DNA from: Desulfoarculaceae bacterium
GTDB taxonomy: Bacteria; Desulfobacterota; Desulfobulbia; Desulfobulbales; Desulfocapsaceae
Assembly (NCBI GenBank): GCA_019429465.1
Contig: JAHYIV010000001.1
Span: 62,001-126,000, forward strand
Length of the DNA: 64,000 nucleotides
Direction of reading: 5' to 3'
Positions 1,872 through 34,653 of this stretch are shown here, in pieces; within the stretch, counting starts at the first letter, position 1; the number at the start of each line of letters is the position of its first letter. Under the pieces are notes generated by a model. It had not been told where the DNA came from and searched no databases. It worked only from the letters and a program-made list of their open reading frames with translations. The position numbers and the translations under genes are program-made.

Positions 1872-2897
1872 ATGAGCATAAAAGCAAACTCCACCCGTAT
1901 CGGCGCCTTTGTCGTCGTATCCTTTCTGCTGCTGATAGCCGGAATCGTTATTTTTGGCGGCGGCAATCTGTTCGGCAGAAAAAATACCGCCATCGTCTAC
2001 TTTGAAGGATCGTTACAGGGCCTCAATGTTGGCGCCCCGGTCGCCTATCGGGGGATCACCATCGGCGCGATCAAAGAGATCAGCCTCGATGTTGATGCTG
2101 CCACCTACCAGATCACGGTACCGGTCCTGATCAGCCTTGCTCCTGACAAGATAGTCAAGATGGAGGGGAAAGACAGCAAAGAGAAAAGCTACGGCATCAA
2201 CACCTTTTTAAAAATGATGGTCGACCGGGGCCTGAGGGCCACCCTGAAATCACAAAGTCTGCTCACCGGCAAGCTCTATATTGATCTGGCCATCCATGAA
2301 GACACTGAGGCAGTGTACCATGACAAGGACGGAAAATATCTGGAGATCCCGACGGTTCCTTCCGAGATGCAACAGATGGCCAGGGCCATGCAATCCCTTG
2401 ATTTCTCAGAACTTGCCACCAAATTCTCAAACACCATGACCGCCCTCGAAACGATGAGCACCAGCCTGGAAAGGGCCCTGGGCTCAGAGGCCTCCAAGGA
2501 AAACCTGGCCATCTTCTTTGCCAGCCTGGACCGTTTTCATTCCATCCTGGCCAAATTTGACGACAACCTGCTGCCAATGATGGCTAAACTCGACACCAGC
2601 CTGGACAAGGTTTCTCAACTCTCAGACAACACCAGCAGCATGATAGGACGCATCGATGGTCAGGTTGATCCTTTTTTTGTGACGATGAACGCCACCATGA
2701 ACGATATGGCGGCAACCATGCGGACAACCGAGGCCCTTATGGCCGGCCTGCGACAGTCCACGGGAGTTGATTCCGCCCTTTATTATCAATTAACCGACAG
2801 CATCAACGAGATGGGAAAAGCAGCAAAATCCATCCGTGCCTTTACTGAATATCTCAAACGCAATCCTCAGATGCTCATCTTTGGAGCAGAAAAATAA
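1872..2897 (+). CDS. MlaD/MCE family lipid-binding protein
   Basis: Periplasmic, membrane-anchored substrate-binding component of the transporter. It starts with a single transmembrane helix (about residues 11-30) and continues into an MCE domain carrying the family pattern of a beta-rich segment with GLNVGAPVAYRGITIG. After the MCE domain comes a long helical tail (about 170-325) rich in hydrophobic/polar heptads, as in MCE proteins that form extended helical tubes. Length is 341 residues. The gene lies downstream of the ATPase and upstream of a PqiC-like lipoprotein. A hairpin repeat follows its stop codon at once. Function is inferred from the MCE family. Confidence 0.9.
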   Translation: MSIKANSTRIGAFVVVSFLLLIAGIVIFGGGNLFGRKNTAIVYFEGSLQGLNVGAPVAYRGITIGAIKEISLDVDAATYQITVPVLISLAPDKIVKMEGKDSKEKSYGINTFLKMMVDRGLRATLKSQSLLTGKLYIDLAIHEDTEAVYHDKDGKYLEIPTVPSEMQQMARAMQSLDFSELATKFSNTMTALETMSTSLERALGSEASKENLAIFFASLDRFHSILAKFDDNLLPMMAKLDTSLDKVSQLSDNTSSMIGRIDGQVDPFFVTMNATMNDMAATMRTTEALMAGLRQSTGVDSALYYQLTDSINEMGKAAKSIRAFTEYLKRNPQMLIFGAEK

Positions 2898-2912
2898 AGG
2901 GCTCGGAAATTA

Positions 2913-2993
2913 CTAACCCCGATGGACGGGATAAGTGCCTTTCGCAGATTATTTTCTTACAAAAAAAACAAGAAAATAATCTGTGCGGCACTA
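2913..2993 (+). repeat. Dispersed palindromic repeat, copy 1
   Basis: An 81-bp segment that recurs with few changes at 56354-56433. Its core is a strong hairpin: AGTGCC (2934-2939) pairs with GGCACT (2987-2992), and CAGATTATTTTCTT pairs with AAGAAAATAATCTG around an A-rich loop. It sits inside the transport operon, between the MCE gene and the lipoprotein gene. It may act as an mRNA-processing or stabilising hairpin, or be a small non-autonomous mobile repeat. It is not followed by a clear T-run on the plus strand. Confidence 0.8.
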
Positions 2994-3051
2994 AAATGAC
3001 AGGCAAAATGATATATCAGAAAATTCTGCGCCCCCAAGGAGGACCTGTTAA

Positions 3052-6706: not shown

Positions 6707-9700
6707 ATGAACACCGATTTTATACATCTTCACGTCCATACCCAGTACAGCCTGCTGGACGGGGCCATCCGCATACCTGACCTGCTCAACAAGTGCAAGG
6801 AATACGGAATGGACAGCGTGGCCATCACCGATCACGGCGCCATGTACGGCGCCCTCGAATTCTACGTCAAGGCCAAAAAGGCCGGGATCAAACCGATCAT
6901 CGGCTGCGAGTTCTACATGGCGCCCGGCAACCGGGCAGACAGAGAAAAAGGACATTTTCACCTTGTTCTGCTGGCGATGGACTTTGCCGGCTACAGGAAC
7001 CTGATGAAATTGGCAGCCATTGCCCAGTTTGAAGGGTTTTATCACAAACCTCGCATCGACATGGAGACCCTCAATATCCACAACGAAGGCCTTATCGCCC
7101 TCACCGCCTGCCTCCACGGCCAGGTTCCCTGGCTCATTGGCCAGAACGATATGGAAGGGGCCAGGAAAAAGGCCAGAGAATTCCAGGATATCTTTGGCGA
7201 CCGGCTCTACTTTGAACTCCAGGAAAACGGCATCCCCGAACAGACCCCGGTTAATACGGGCATGAAAAAGCTGGCAGCAGAGCTCGGGATCAAGACGGTG
7301 GCCACCAATGACTGTCACTATCTGAACAAGGATGAGGCCCATGCCCATGACGTCCTTCTCTGCATTCAGACCAACAACACCATAACCAATGCCAATCGTT
7401 TTAAATTTTCCACCGATGAATTTTACTTCAAATCACCGGAGGAGATGAAGAAAAGGTTTCATCATACCCCGGAGGCCATTGCCACAAGCGTCGAGATCGC
7501 CCAGCGCTGTAACCTGGAGATAGGGTTTGGCGACTATTTTTTCCCAATTTTTCCTGTCACAGAAGGCGAAACCCTCGAATCCATGTTCGCCACCTCCTGC
7601 TGGCAAGGTTTGCAGGAACGATTCGCGGCCATGCGCGAGGCCGGGACATTCAGCCCAGCCTCTGAAAAGCTGTATAAGGAACGGTTGACCACAGAGATTG
7701 ATGTGATCAACACCATGGGCTTTCCCGGCTACTTCCTCATCGTGGCGGATTTCATCAACTGGGCCAAGGATCAAGCCATCCCGGTGGGACCTGGCCGTGG
7801 ATCAGGGGCGGGCAGTCTTGCCGCCTACTGCATGCGCATCACCAATATCGACCCTCTCCCCTACGGCCTTCTCTTCGAGCGCTTTCTCAATATCGAGCGC
7901 CAAGGAATGCCCGACTTTGATGTGGACTTCTGCCAGGAACGACGGGGAGAGGTTATTGAGTATGTGCAGAACAAGTATGGCGGCGCCTCCCATGTCGCCC
8001 AGATCCTGACCTACGGCACCATGAAGGCGCGCGGGGCGATCCGTGACGTAGGCCGGGCCATGGACATCCCCTATGGCGAGGTCGACCGGATCGCCAAGCT
8101 CATCCCCGAGCAGTTGAAGATGACGATCAAGAAGGCCTTTGGTGAGGAACCCCGTCTTCAGGATGCCGCGAACAGGAGCCCCCAGATTGCCGAACTGCTG
8201 AGCGTGGCCCAGTCTCTCGAAGGTCTGGCCCGGCACACATCCACCCATGCGGCAGGCGTGGTGGTTTCACCCCTGCCCATGGTGGAATTCCTGCCCACCT
8301 GCAAGGGTAAAGATGGCGAAACCCTGACTCAGTATGACATGAAACATACCGAGATGACCGGACTTATCAAGTTTGACTTCCTGGGCCTCAAGACCCTTAC
8401 CGTCATCGATAAGGCGCTCAAGCACATCAAGGCCGACATCGGCACCGAACTTGACATCGACGCCATCCCCATGGATGACCTCAAGACCTTTGACCTGCTC
8501 TGCCGGGGCGATGCCCTGGGGGTCTTTCAGCTGGAGAGTTCCGGCATGCGGGAGCTGCTGGTCAAGATGGCGCCCGAACAGTTCAGCGATCTCATTGCCC
8601 TCGTCGCCCTCTACCGCCCCGGACCCCTCGATTCGGGGATGGTTAATGATTTTGTCGAGACCAAACATGGCCGCGCCACTGCCAATTATCCCCTGCCCCA
8701 GCTCAAATCCGTCCTTGAAGAGACCTATGGAGTCATTGTCTATCAGGAACAGGTCATGCAGATCGCCAATATCCTGGCCAGTTATTCACTAGGAGATGCC
8801 GACAACCTGCGCAGGGCCATGGGTAAAAAGATCCCTGAGGTCATGGATAAGGAAAAGGTCAAGTTCATGGCCGGGGCCAAGCTGAACAGTATCCCGGAAG
8901 ACAAGGCCGAATATGTCTTTGATCTGATGGCTAAATTTGCAGGATACGGCTTCAACAAATCACACTCTGCCGCCTATGCCCTGATCTGCTATCAGACCGC
9001 CTATCTCAAGGCCCACCACCCTGCCCAGTTCATGGCCGCCCTGCTTTCCTGCGACATGAATAACACGGACAAGATCGTGCTTTATATCAATGAGTGTCGG
9101 GAACACAAGATCGAGATCCTGCCGCCTGATATCAATGAATCGATCTACGACTTCAGCGTCACCGACGATCGAATCCGCTTTGGTCTGGCAGCGGTCAAAA
9201 ATGTTGGTGGTGCCGCCCTTGAGTCCATCATTAAGGAGAGAAAGGACGGCGGGACATACACCTCGCTCGAGGATTTCTGCAACCGGATCGACTCCAGGAG
9301 GGTCAACTCCAGGGTCATTGAGAGCCTGATCAAGGCGGGTTCTTTTGACTCCCTGGGCTGCAAACGCTCCCAACTCTACACCATCCTGCCCCAGGCCATG
9401 GAACAGGCCAAGGCTGCACAGCGGGACCGGCAGAGCGGCCAGATGTCTCTTTTTTCCCTGGCCCCGGACACCACCCAAAAAGAGCTCATTACTATTCCCC
9501 TCCCTGAGATAGAAGAGTGGAACGAACTGGAACGGCTGGTCTTTGAAAAAGAGACCGTCGGTTTTTACATTACCGGCCACCCGCTTGATGACGCCATCCA
9601 TGAGATCAGGACCGTGGTCGACTCCGATATCGGCAAGCTGGCCGAGTGGGGCGACGAGCAACCGGTTCGCGTTGGCGGCCTTATTCGTACCTGCAAGCTG

Positions 9701-31582: not shown

Positions 31583-33085
31583 TCACCCGCAAACGCTTTT
31601 TTTTCGATTGTGCTCAACAAGAATCAACGCGACGCCAACTCGCTTTTTCAAGAGGCCATGGTACCTGCCGCTTTGAGCCACTAGGAGAACATTTCGTTGC
31701 GCCGCCGCCAGCCGTTTCACCAACGCCCAGCGCCGTGCCCGATGTGTTCCGCATCGGGCATAAAAACGGGGCCGGGCCGGAATCCTTTTCATGCCCAAAT
31801 CAGATGCCGTCCAGACGGCATCCCGATCAAAGAGTTCGTAATACCTTCCCACTTGCAACAAAATGACGCCACGAAAACGCCGACGAAAAAATCCGTACTG
31901 ACTCTTGAGATGAGCCGGCTTGCCCGAACATACCCAGCGTTTTCTGATCTTTTTCCGCCATCGCTCAAAAAGCAGTCCCAGCCAGAAAAATCGAACAAAC
32001 AAAGAATCTCGCAGCCGCGCTGAGGCCGCATGACGAAACAAGCCGAAGTACGATTGCATGGTCGCATGCAGTTGCCGATAGACATCAGGCGGAAAGGAAA
32101 GGATAAGGCCTTCCGCCTCTTTCCGAACCACCCTTTTGGAATAGCGGGCAATCGCCGCCTTGCACCGATCGACGATTCTCCGGCGAACCAGCAGATGCGT
32201 GGGCCGCACGACATAGCCAACAAAATCAGCCCCATTGGAAACCGGGCGAATAAAACGCCGCGTTGGATGCAATTCCAAAAGCAGTTGGTTTTTCAAAAAA
32301 ATCTCGATCTCAACCAGCCAGCCCGCAAGAACCTGTCGATCTTCATGGACCAGGATCATATCATCCACATAACGAAGGTATGACTTCGCCTTGAGCTGGT
32401 GTTTGACGAACTGATCCAGGGGATTGAGATAGACATTGGCCAGGAACTGACTGGTCAGGTTGCCGATAGGCAGCCCTTTACCGGGCGGCGCGCCAAACAG
32501 GCTTTTTCCCGGCGGAATGTTGCGCCACTTCTCGCGAGAACAGGTGAGCATAGGGTCTATTGCCGGATCGTGCGCGATCACAACCTCGGCCAGCCATTGC
32601 AGCTCTTCACTGTGCAGGCGAGAACGGACATACTCAAGGAGCAGGCCCCGGTCAATGGACGGGAAAAAGGAGCGGATATCAAGCTGGAGAAACCATGCCC
32701 GGCGGGTGGTGTTGGCAGTGGCCCGCCACATGAAGGTCTGGAGCCGCTCGACCGCTGCGTGCGTCCCCTTTCCCCTGCGGCAGGCATAGGAATCATGGAT
32801 AAAAACAGGCTCCCAGATTTTTTCCAGCTCGCGCACCAGCAGGTGATGCACCACGCGATCCCGGAACTGGGCGGCAAACACCTCGCGGTACTTGTCGTTA
32901 CGGGCTACAAAGCAGAACGAGGGGCGGGGACGATAGGTCCGACCGGCCAATTCGGAGGCAAGGTCGAGAAGTTCTTCCTCGGCCCTGGCCTCGAATGCAA
33001 GGGCCGCCGTCTTGCCGCGCTTGCGGCGGCGGCAATCAAGCCAGGCCCCATACAGGTTTTCAAAGGTAAAAAAGGACGTCATCAT
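31583..33085 (-). CDS. DGR reverse transcriptase with MutS-I-like C-terminal extension
   Basis: RNA-directed DNA polymerase of a diversity-generating retroelement, 500 residues. RT motifs: RDRVVHHLLV (about 76-85), SYACRRGKGTHAAVERL, catalytic Asp in LQLDIRSFFPSID (Asp136), GLPIGNLTSQFLANVYLNP with the DGR-type IGxxxSQ instead of the group II QGxxxSP (about 207-213), and the active site RYVDDMILV (239-242). After the thumb (to about 390) a further ~90 residues resemble MutS domain I (VILLQVGRYYELFDRDA, about 407-423, then LVKRLAAAQRNVLLVAQSG). The start codons ATG-ATG lie at the 3' edge of the template repeat. Neighbours are TR, avd and the target gene. It would make adenine-mutagenised cDNA from TR RNA. 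Confidence 0.96.
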   Translation of the reverse strand: MMTSFFTFENLYGAWLDCRRRKRGKTAALAFEARAEEELLDLASELAGRTYRPRPSFCFVARNDKYREVFAAQFRDRVVHHLLVRELEKIWEPVFIHDSYACRRGKGTHAAVERLQTFMWRATANTTRRAWFLQLDIRSFFPSIDRGLLLEYVRSRLHSEELQWLAEVVIAHDPAIDPMLTCSREKWRNIPPGKSLFGAPPGKGLPIGNLTSQFLANVYLNPLDQFVKHQLKAKSYLRYVDDMILVHEDRQVLAGWLVEIEIFLKNQLLLELHPTRRFIRPVSNGADFVGYVVRPTHLLVRRRIVDRCKAAIARYSKRVVRKEAEGLILSFPPDVYRQLHATMQSYFGLFRHAASARLRDSLFVRFFWLGLLFERWRKKIRKRWVCSGKPAHLKSQYGFFRRRFRGVILLQVGRYYELFDRDAVWTASDLGMKRIPARPRFYARCGTHRARRWALVKRLAAAQRNVLLVAQSGRYHGLLKKRVGVALILVEHNRKKSVCG

Positions 33086-33200
33086 CTTCGCGGAAGCGAC
33101 CGCACTCCAAAAACCCTGTTGTTGTTGGAGTTATCCCGGTTGTTCCAGTTCTCGTTGCCGTTGTTGAAGTTGAAGTTCCACGCCGACGACGAATCGTTAT
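33080..33200 (-). repeat. DGR template repeat (TR)
   Basis: A 121-bp segment between avd and the RT gene that matches 33845-33965 base for base except at 16 positions. Read on the minus strand every one of the 16 is an A in TR. TR carries 13 AAC codons in the frame of the target; AAC is the classic DGR template codon because A-mutagenesis of its first two bases reaches 15 amino acids without making a stop. The GC-rich 3' part (GTGCGGTCGCTTCCGCG) is identical in both repeats and should serve as the IMH/IMH* region. TR ends in the start codon of the RT gene. Confidence 0.97.
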
Positions 33201-33319
33201 CCCCTCACTTTCCGGGCTCAACAACCACCCGGCCACCGGAAGCCAATCCTCTGCGGTATGACTCCCTGCATTCCTATGCCGCTTGGGCGGAGGGAACAAG
33301 ATGATGATACTCGGCACGC

Positions 33320-33721
33320 TCATCGCGACAGCCCCGCCGGGGCATGCGTTGATGATTCAGGCCTCGGCCCGCCTCGGGCCATAACACTCCGCACCCACCC
33401 CTCGTTCTGCTTTGCAATCCCGATTACTTGTTGAATGCTGGTTTCAAAGGAATTGAAATTGGAAAATGCCTTTACCTCCTTGCAAATACGGATAACCACT
33501 TTCAGCTCTTCAAGCTTGATCCGGAGTTCCTCAAGCACCGGCACCCTATCGTGGCAGTTATTGGCGCGCACAATCAGCATCAACGCCTCCCGCGTCAGGT
33601 TCCGCAAGGCCGTTCCATGGGTGTACTTGTGATACCGGCTGAAGTGGCGGACAATGGTCTCAAAGTAGATTTGGAGGTCAAAGGCCGCCTTGTAGATCGG
33701 CAGATGCTCATACTGGGCCAT
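33320..33721 (-). CDS. avd: DGR accessory variability determinant (four-helix bundle)
   Basis: A 133-residue, nearly all-helical protein. The first four-fifths (YEHLPIYKAAFDLQIYFETI, then HKYTHGTALRNLTREALMLI, VPVLEELRIKLEELKVVIRI, SFETSIQQVIGIAKQNEGW) give four amphipathic helices with basic surfaces, the pattern of bAvd, which forms a pentameric barrel binding the reverse transcriptase and TR RNA. It is placed between the target gene and TR, the usual site for avd. The ATG follows GGGAGG at 8 bp. The last 20 residues are polar and probably unstructured. Confidence 0.92.
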   Translation of the reverse strand: MAQYEHLPIYKAAFDLQIYFETIVRHFSRYHKYTHGTALRNLTREALMLIVRANNCHDRVPVLEELRIKLEELKVVIRICKEVKAFSNFNSFETSIQQVIGIAKQNEGWVRSVMARGGPRPESSTHAPAGLSR

Positions 33722-33736
33722 GGCAAAATCCTCCCT

Positions 33737-33769
33737 AAAAAAAATCGTCCAGGGGCTTTGCCCCTGGAC
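33737..33769 (-). terminator. Hairpin with T-run between target gene and avd
   Basis: GTCCAGGGGC and GCCCCTGGAC (33747-33769) form a perfect 10-bp stem with a 3-nt loop. Read on the minus strand it is followed by CGA and eight T residues (33744-33737), the form of an intrinsic terminator. It lies 81 bp past the target stop and just before the avd ribosome-binding site. It would lower read-through from target gene into avd-TR-RT, or, as in the Bordetella phage DGR, act as the structured DNA downstream of VR. Confidence 0.75.
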
Positions 33770-33844
33770 CCCACCAATTTTTTAAAAGAATACAAAGGAC
33801 CGAAAAAACAAAGAATCAAAAGGATCAAATCAGCAAATGACCGA

Positions 33845-33965
33845 CATCATCATCGCGGAAGCGACCGCACTCCAAAAACCCTGTCGAGGTTGGAGTTATC
33901 CCGGAGGCGCCAGTTCTCGTTGCCGCCGTAGAAGTCGAAGAGCCACGCCGACGACGAATCGCGAG
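33845..33965 (-). repeat. DGR variable repeat (VR)
   Basis: The recipient copy of the template repeat, forming the 3' end of the target gene. Compared with TR there are 16 substitutions, all at template adenines: 15 fall in nine AAC codons (now encoding Arg231, Leu238, Asp240, Tyr242, Gly243, Arg249, Leu250, Leu256 and Asp257 of the target) and one converts AGA to the TGA stop codon. Four template AAC codons (Asn245, 247, 253, 255) are unchanged. No substitution is seen at G, C or T of the template. Confidence 0.97.
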
Positions 33966-34653
33966 GTTCGGCCCAAACCCACCAACCAGTGGTCTTAAAA
34001 GGCGGAACCATATTCCGTTCGCCAACACCCTTCCGATACAATTCATTCAACTCCGCCCCTGTCGGCATGCGCCAGCCGCCGCCCGCCACTTGACAGGCGG
34101 CCACCCACTGCTCGGCCTGTGCATAATTGGTATCCTGATCCGGCCCCACCACCCATTCCAGCTTGGTCTGACCATCGGTGATCATCCCATCCGCCGAGAC
34201 CTGGAAACGTGCGGCCCCGGTGACCAGATCACCAACCTCGCCGCCACCTTTTTGGGCAAAGGCCCTCTCAATTTTCATGGGCTGGGGCAGAACCGCCGTC
34301 TCCCCCTGGGGGGCGCTGTCCACCTTGGCTTTCGCCGTGGTGGTCCATTTGTCGGACCAGGGTTTGAGCACATAGGCGGACGATGGAAACAAACCCTTCA
34401 ACGCAAAGGAGCCATCCGCGCCGGTCACCGCTTCGAACTGCTCATAGCCCTTGATCGGCTGCACCTGGTACGCCGTGATCTTCACTCCGGCCACCGGCTT
34501 GTTGTTCCAGTCCACCAGCTTCCCCTCCACCGACGACGACTTGCCGCCCTTACAGGCGGCAAGACTCAGCGCACAAACCAGCAGCAATGCCAGCCAAATG
34601 AGTCCGCCCTGTATAATGCCAGCAACCCTTCTTTTCCCCACTCCCTTTGCCAT
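33850..34653 (-). CDS. DGR target: variable surface lipoprotein with C-type-lectin-like (DUF1566-like) domain
   Basis: A 267-residue predicted lipoprotein. The ATG at 34653 follows GGGAGGAG and gives a signal segment ending in lipobox LAAC (Cys about 34); a longer frame at 34749 lacks this logic. Residues about 40-110 look like a carboxypeptidase-regulatory (transthyretin-like) fold: SVEGKLVDWNNKPVAGVKI, GADGSFALKG. Residues about 165-267 fit the DUF1566/Lcl branch of the formylglycine/C-type lectin fold: TKLEWVVGPDQ, GGGWRMPTGAELNELY, and the closing GVRSLPR typical of DGR-diversified proteins. The last 37 residues are the VR. Inferred role: displayed binding protein whose contact surface is diversified. 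Confidence 0.93.
   Translation of the reverse strand: MAKGVGKRRVAGIIQGGLIWLALLLVCALSLAACKGGKSSSVEGKLVDWNNKPVAGVKITAYQVQPIKGYEQFEAVTGADGSFALKGLFPSSAYVLKPWSDKWTTTAKAKVDSAPQGETAVLPQPMKIERAFAQKGGGEVGDLVTGAARFQVSADGMITDGQTKLEWVVGPDQDTNYAQAEQWVAACQVAGGGWRMPTGAELNELYRKGVGERNMVPPFKTTGWWVWAEPRDSSSAWLFDFYGGNENWRLRDNSNLDRVFGVRSLPR

Follow-up and report, generated by a model that had tools for sequence, protein, structure and literature searches.

The diversity-generating retroelement (DGR) of Bordetella phage BPP-1 has the gene order mtd-avd-TR-brt, that is, target, Avd, template repeat (TR) and reverse transcriptase (RT), and cellular DGRs include elements whose targets carry the domain Lcl_C (DUF1566 is presumably its older name), such as a DGR lipoprotein of Legionella. 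Here, we analyze a 64,000-nucleotide stretch from the genome of a Desulfoarculaceae bacterium (assembly GCA_019429465.1, contig JAHYIV010000001.1, positions 62,001 to 126,000; hereafter the window, with positions counted from its first base), which holds on the minus strand throughout (31583-34653) a DGR of the same layout—lipoprotein target, Avd, TR and RT, in order of transcription—whose RT ends in a domain that is very probably homologous to MutS domain I. The window cassette shares with the BPP-1 DGR the adenine-specific differences between TR and variable repeat (VR) and a similar RT core (best PDB match 8ub7 'Reverse transcriptase', probably the BPP-1 RT structure, E = 9.8e-39), but the 328-residue 8ub7 chain is too short to hold such a tail, and the window cassette is chromosomal and has a lipoprotein as target; with cellular DUF1566-target DGRs, it shares the target domain. 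Judged from its sequence, the cassette is almost certainly a chromosomal DGR, and the DGR as such is ordinary.

DUF1566 is the commonest Pfam domain among DGR targets (PMC6642488), and the passages of that article considered here do not mention an RT-MutS fusion for DGRs with such targets. Known RT fusions include RT-Cas1 and UG RTs joined to nitrilase or primase (PMC8934634), and like these the window RT is a bacterial RT with an added domain; for DGRs, Table 4 in the same article lists Avd-like proteins (62%) only, with no fused MutS domain.

A MutS-like domain at the end of the RT

The window RT is 500 residues long, compared with a mean of about 375 residues for DGR RTs (PMC4244168), because its last ~100 residues make up the match to MutS domain I:

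31583..33085, minus strand: DGR reverse transcriptase, 500 aa (Pfam RVT_1, E = 1.6e-18; IGNLTSQ and YVDD motifs; best PDB match 8ub7)
32285..32896, minus strand: RVT_1 catalytic core, residues 64-267 (Pfam)
31619..31906, minus strand: C-terminal putative MutS domain I, residues 394-489 (Pfam MutS_I; profile of the tail family against PDB)
31835..31843, minus strand: Y415-Y416-E417, at the place of the MutS F-x-E motif (alignment of 37 tails)

Both the IGNLTSQ sequence (residues 207-213), which is the DGR motif within RT motif 4 (PMC4244168, PMC3521204), and the YxDD active site (YVDD, residues 239-242) are undisrupted, in agreement with a preliminary description of the locus that had reported an RT with YVDD and IGxxxSQ; no NCBIfam model matched the RT at its cut-off. 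That description had called the locus a complete DGR aimed at a surface lipoprotein; the DGR is indeed complete and its target is predicted to be a lipoprotein. The description had overlooked the MutS domain of the RT as well as another DGR elsewhere in this genome.

In Pfam searches the 500-residue RT matched RVT_1 and MutS_I only, and the core, clamp and ATPase domains of MutS were not found. MutS_I scored 22.6 bits on the tail piece (cut-off 20.6) and 18.7 bits, under the cut-off, within the full RT (E = 0.0021). A profile of 37 aligned tails—37 of the 40 domain-bearing RTs that we collected, with L056 (truncated), L064 (internal stop) and the second RT of the same genome (linker insert) omitted—matched MutS chains 1fw6 and 1ewq at E = 1.6e-15, other MutS chains at 9e-11 to 3.2e-9, Msh6 at 6e-9 and Msh3 at 2e-5, with the MutS matches spanning positions 2-95 or 1-97 of 98, and it also matched the host's own MutS. 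Pfam MutS_I matched 32 of the 37 tails at E up to 1, and a search of the whole genome with PF01624 at E up to 0.1 returned the true mutS and two DGR RTs only.

The Phe and Glu of the F-x-E motif are the mismatch-reading residues of MutS. At this place the window RT has Y-Y-E, so that the aromatic residue is kept without being Phe, and across the 37 aligned tails an aromatic residue at the Phe place and the Glu are each present in 33, together with a Gly in 37 of 37 and an Arg in 36 of 36. Both motif residues are lost in L037, L041 and L042, the aromatic residue in L070 and the Glu in L092; the first three, two of them from Elusimicrobiota bins, provide a natural motif-loss series in which the VRs of L037 and L041 are adenine-only. 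Over about the last 105 codons, dN/dS of the tail was 0.17-0.61 in the 6 of 7 pairs with defined dS; measured by pN, 6 of the 7 pairs showed faster change in the tail than in the RT core. The mean net charge of the tails is +9.8 per ~96 aa, vs. +2 for the host MutS domain I. The tail thus resembles MutS domain I (PF01624) in aligning to 1fw6/1ewq over the whole domain and in its F/Y-x-E motif, but is far more basic, is joined to a reverse transcriptase and comes without the other MutS domains. A conserved nucleic-acid role of the tail is probable.

Spread of the RT-MutS fusion

The MutS domain is present in 40 of 94 collected DGR RTs, namely 38 of the best 80 of at least 362 relatives from a scan of genome contigs, with the domain recognized by an iterated profile, plus both RTs of the window's own genome. 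None of the nine RTs from viral contigs (three of which, L105, L106 and L110, are identical in the RT core) and none of the three same-family RTs (one of which, L024, is truncated) carries it. By record title and attached taxonomy, the carriers come from about twelve phyla—Thermodesulfobacteriota, Pseudomonadota, Planctomycetota, Elusimicrobiota, Nitrospinota, Calditrichota, Chloroflexota, Verrucomicrobiota, KSB1, Rokubacteria, Binatota and Myxococcota—and the majority belong to metagenome bins, where an individual contig may be misplaced.

We additionally searched genome samples from two phyla, each including its centre genome, with a model built from 48 of the 94 RTs (38 with and 10 without the domain), which favors this group. 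In the window's phylum, 11 of 395 genomes had DGR RTs at E<=1e-60, and in 6 of these 11 (7 of the 12 RTs) the match extended to model positions 484-486. Of 398 genomes from the phylum of a Nevskiales genome, 11 likewise had such RTs; here, 4 of the 11 reach positions 483-487, one reaches 423, and two stop at 314-321 in frames of 441-478 aa, long enough to leave a tail possible. None of the 69 phage and 36 plasmid records that have a similar RT matched over more than 80% of the query (in a single-query tblastn search, which diverged tails could escape), and the annotated RT of one plasmid spans 1,065 bases (about 354 aa), which leaves no room for the tail.

On a tree of the RTs (omitting L024, L047, L064 and L083), presence of the domain needs 5 changes vs. 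29 with shuffled labels, with the deepest forks weakly resolved. A single strictly monophyletic origin fits poorly with these 5 changes, and one clade was weakly rejected by the approximately unbiased (AU) test (p-AU 0.026, L023 also omitted); one or a few old gains with losses would explain the distribution. Two further candidate explanations for the domain were rejected. Replacement of Avd is contradicted by the presence of Avd in 35 of 40 MutS-type loci (4 of the 5 exceptions have their RT no more than 400 bases from the start of the contig), and substitution for a missing mutS by the presence of mutS in the window's own genome and in 9 of 9 other hosts examined, with frames of 883-953 aa in eight of them and 376 aa in one.

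Among the titles matched by our searches of the open-licence literature for DGRs or RTs together with MutS, we found none on an RT-MutS fusion, nor is one mentioned in the passages of PMC8934634, PMC8144416, PMC3521204 and PMC6642488 considered here; an earlier description may nevertheless exist. Pfam or InterPro domain tables may list this architecture without comment.

The cassette in its genome and genus

The remaining parts of the cassette lie upstream of the RT in the direction of transcription:

33077..33199, minus strand: TR (repeat alignment), running at its 3' end into the first codons of the RT open reading frame (ORF)
33320..33721, minus strand: Avd accessory protein, 133 aa (Pfam bAvd, NCBIfam DivGenRetAVD)
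33747..33769, minus strand: hairpin with 10-bp stem and 3-nt loop, 72 bp 3' of VR and followed by a T run
33842..33964, minus strand: VR, in the 3'-terminal part of the target gene (differs from TR at 17 places, each of them a TR adenine)
33850..34653, minus strand: target lipoprotein, 267 aa, with lipobox LAAC, a CarboxypepD_reg-like domain and a C-terminal Lcl_C domain (Pfam)

Every DGR part named in the preliminary description was found where it had been placed, on the minus strand. Its Avd-like protein matches Pfam bAvd at 40.7 bits (cut-off 40) and NCBIfam DivGenRetAVD at E = 6e-10, the latter with 39.4 bits against a cut-off of 80. For the target, Lcl_C scored 38.6 bits (cut-off 34.9), with VR spanning the last target codons, while CarboxypepD_reg scored 31.9 bits, under its cut-off of 32.3; the lipobox was identified by eye, and no solved structure matched the target at a useful E-value. 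The most likely target start is 34653, an ATG before the signal sequence in an ORF that extends to 34749, and the target residue numbers given earlier match the 267-aa protein from this start.

The TR/VR pair, previously described as 121 bp with 16 differences, is real and extends without gaps to 123 bp with 17 differences, and the claim that all differences fall at template adenines holds for 17 of 17. With 36 A in the 123 positions of TR, the chance probability of this placement is 2.9e-11, an optimistic value in that the segment was picked by a score lenient to A mismatches; plain alignment and a repeat finder (127 nt, 86%) recovered the same pair. In the target frame, TR contains 13 AAC codons, 9 of which are altered in VR, the same counts as reported before, and the last 2 of the 17 differences, at or just past the stop codon, may be fixed boundary differences. 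A TR search of the window's own genome returned no copy at a meaningful E-value beyond this TR and VR.

The adenine-linked VR variation that the preliminary description expected is present between genomes, in a Desulfobulbaceae locus (L025) and in two same-genus genomes. L025 holds a whole cassette with an RT 79% identical to that of the window and a TR nearly identical to the window's (5 differences), together with a different VR whose changes from its own TR all fall at A (14 of 14). This cassette lies at another site, beside a pheA-like gene (named by eye), so the cassette seems to move as a unit. The hairpin at 33747-33769 is conserved in L025 with one compensatory pair, the third of the stem, which is C-G in the window and A-T in L025, and 9 of 200 shuffles of the stretch fold equally well; lying 72 bp from VR and terminator-like, this hairpin could be a DGR target-site hairpin or a terminator. 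No tRNA or Rfam RNA was found in the window.

The cassette is flanked by glycosyltransferase (GT) and fructose-bisphosphatase genes, and the adjoining GT gene is present in 14 of 16 other same-genus genomes. The two flanking genes are direct neighbours in 5 of these 14 (L130, L131, L132, L140 and L141); in G087 the target alone lies between them, and in G088 the target adjoins the GT gene at the contig end, with no space between for RT, TR and Avd. The other 7 have different genes at the site, or the contig stops first. In three same-genus loci (L148, L149 and L150), an oxidoreductase-like ORF set (named by eye) sits beside the GT gene at the position of the window's DGR, in L149 between the GT and bisphosphatase genes. 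The site looks like an insertion hotspot.

No DGR RT at E<=1e-40 was found in the 16 other same-genus genomes, and a TR search of them recovered only the VRs of G087 and G088 plus another copy of the target in G088, which is more decayed. These orphan targets, without adjoining RT, Avd or TR, are L146 (G087, 2217-3041), L147 (G088, 1649-2316) and L157 (G088); the first two are adenine-biased relative to the window TR, and L157 less so (24/37). Relative to the window TR, the orphan VRs of G087 and G088 each have 23 of 36 A changed, plus 4 and 8 non-A places, and between the two there are 13 differences, of which 5 fall at A and 8 elsewhere. Therefore, as far as such small numbers allow, the adenine bias dates from the time when an RT was still there, and the drift that followed is not bound to adenine. 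The same genus thus offers a contrast, again in small numbers, between differences at A only in the presence of the RT and drift at other bases too in orphan targets without it.

The second DGR of the window's own genome (G000:C52; L005 7098-12010, minus strand) has an RT that is 48% identical to the first and also MutS-tailed, an Avd, a TR (9185-9325) and two Lcl_C targets, one on each side, with VR differences at A in 23/23 and 25/26 cases. A partly palindromic repetitive extragenic palindromic (REP)-like repeat, TGGTTCCCATGCGGCGCA, has 16 matches with up to 2 mismatches at 11 places in the genome, one of them in frame within the linker of the second RT (G000:C52:83853-83870), and a similar sequence was seen by eye beside the orphan VR in L146. 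Two RTs elsewhere in the genome are of group-II-intron type (by eye) and not DGR RTs (L006 4147-5484, L007 4598-5800). Among the collected loci, L054 has several VRs for one TR (four pairs, one of 65 bp), L045 has two VRs downstream, and L154, from a plasmid of Ideonella dechloratans, has two Avd and two RT genes alternating within 4 kb.

Possible roles of the domain

When a DGR inserts mutated cDNA into the chromosome, many mismatches have to be preserved. By the steps known for the DGR family, RT and Avd would copy TR RNA into cDNA, making errors where the template has adenine, and this cDNA would replace VR at the end of the lipoprotein gene, diversifying the C-type-lectin-like domain. We propose that the strongly basic tail, in which the F/Y-x-E motif is usually kept, would bind the mismatch-rich duplex, in which the cDNA is paired either with TR RNA or with the VR strand. 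With the tail occupying the mismatches, host MutS would neither reject the mutated cDNA nor correct it before fixation. Starting from the DGR anatomy, the adenine-only differences, and the homology and conservation of the tail, all read from sequence, we infer mismatch binding, the duplex bound and shielding from repair alike. We advance the whole account, of a chromosomal DGR whose RT-borne MutS domain binds mismatch-rich duplex and shields it, as plausible but tentative, just short of probable, and regard a shielding or mismatch-specific role of the tail as possible rather than probable.

Work in other systems bears on this proposal. In a study of a DGR in E. coli, the cDNA was inferred to pair with the single-stranded lagging-strand template, and mutS was deleted to help keep DGR substitutions (PMC12875486); editing by a retron rose 21-fold on mutS deletion (PMC6868368). 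The duplex of cDNA and lagging strand would carry many mismatches and invite MutS, and a mismatch reader attached to the RT would seem well placed to occupy them first. TR/VR pairs beside the RT were obtained in 29 of 40 MutS-type loci (minimum 85 bp and 4 mismatches, no more than three pairs per locus, pairs with under 80% of their mismatches at A discarded), with 722 of 741 mismatches at A, a share that is partly built in by the 80%-at-A filter.

Several observations weigh against the shielding proposal. MutS itself needs other domains (clamp and ATPase) that are absent from the RT, and the viral-contig DGRs in our set manage without the domain. The idea that the domain changes the mutation spectrum was rejected, as A-to-G, A-to-C and A-to-T changes are distributed alike with and without it (chi-square P = 0.59), and non-A mismatches are similarly frequent after the same filter (19/741 with vs. 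25/723 without). The altered fraction of A in cell-borne DGRs is 0.46 with vs. 0.39 without the domain (P = 8e-4, uncorrected for kinship); these fractions give no support for an effect of the domain, because viral DGRs without it reach 0.53. Nor is the F-x-E motif essential, since VR mismatches remain at A in the motif-less L037 (14/14) and L041 (15/15) and the Glu-less L092 (21/24). Finally, mutS deletion had no effect in a kanamycin assay of the E. coli DGR, although the 18-nt insertion used in that assay is described as not being a substrate of MutS (PMC12875486).

The main rival to shielding is that MutS domain I serves as a general nucleic-acid grip, anchoring TR RNA, primer or cDNA to the RT with no part in mismatch recognition or escape from repair, a credible if somewhat doubtful alternative. 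The strongly positive tail (mean +9.8), the adenine-biased VRs of motif-less members, the unchanged spectrum and the TR that ends at or overlaps the RT start in many members are all consistent with a grip, but the retention of each motif residue in 33 of 37 tails is above the expectation for a generic one. A pro-mutagenic domain, which would read mispaired primer ends and promote their extension, or recruit MutL to steer strand choice, would account for the fusion of a conserved mismatch-reading motif to a mismatch-making enzyme. We consider it improbable, in that neither the fraction nor the kind of A substitutions clearly differs without the domain, and the MutS-MutL contact uses other MutS domains.

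It is also quite improbable that the cassette is inactive in this genome and its VR frozen diversity: DGRs do come and go in the genus, where 0 of 16 other genomes have a DGR RT at E<=1e-40 and two retain orphan targets only, but RT, Avd, TR and VR are intact here, and TR and VR differ at no non-A place, vs. 8 of 13 between the orphan VRs. Loss of one or both motif residues in 5 of 37 members and the faster evolution of the tail than the RT core would suit a functionless remnant of an old gene fusion, which is very improbable given that record titles place the carriers in about twelve phyla, that dN/dS stays below 1 in each of the six defined pairs, and that Gly and Arg are invariant.

Should shielding by the tail be borne out, a large group of chromosomal DGRs would carry their own RT-borne mismatch-recognition head, by which mutated cDNA would escape host repair in a locus-specific exemption, a generalization that we consider rather unlikely at present. 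The MutS tail is also a simple sequence marker by which one group of cell-borne DGRs can be told apart. The presence of the mismatch-reading domain of MutS on a mutagenic RT makes the question of how DGRs escape mismatch repair directly testable.

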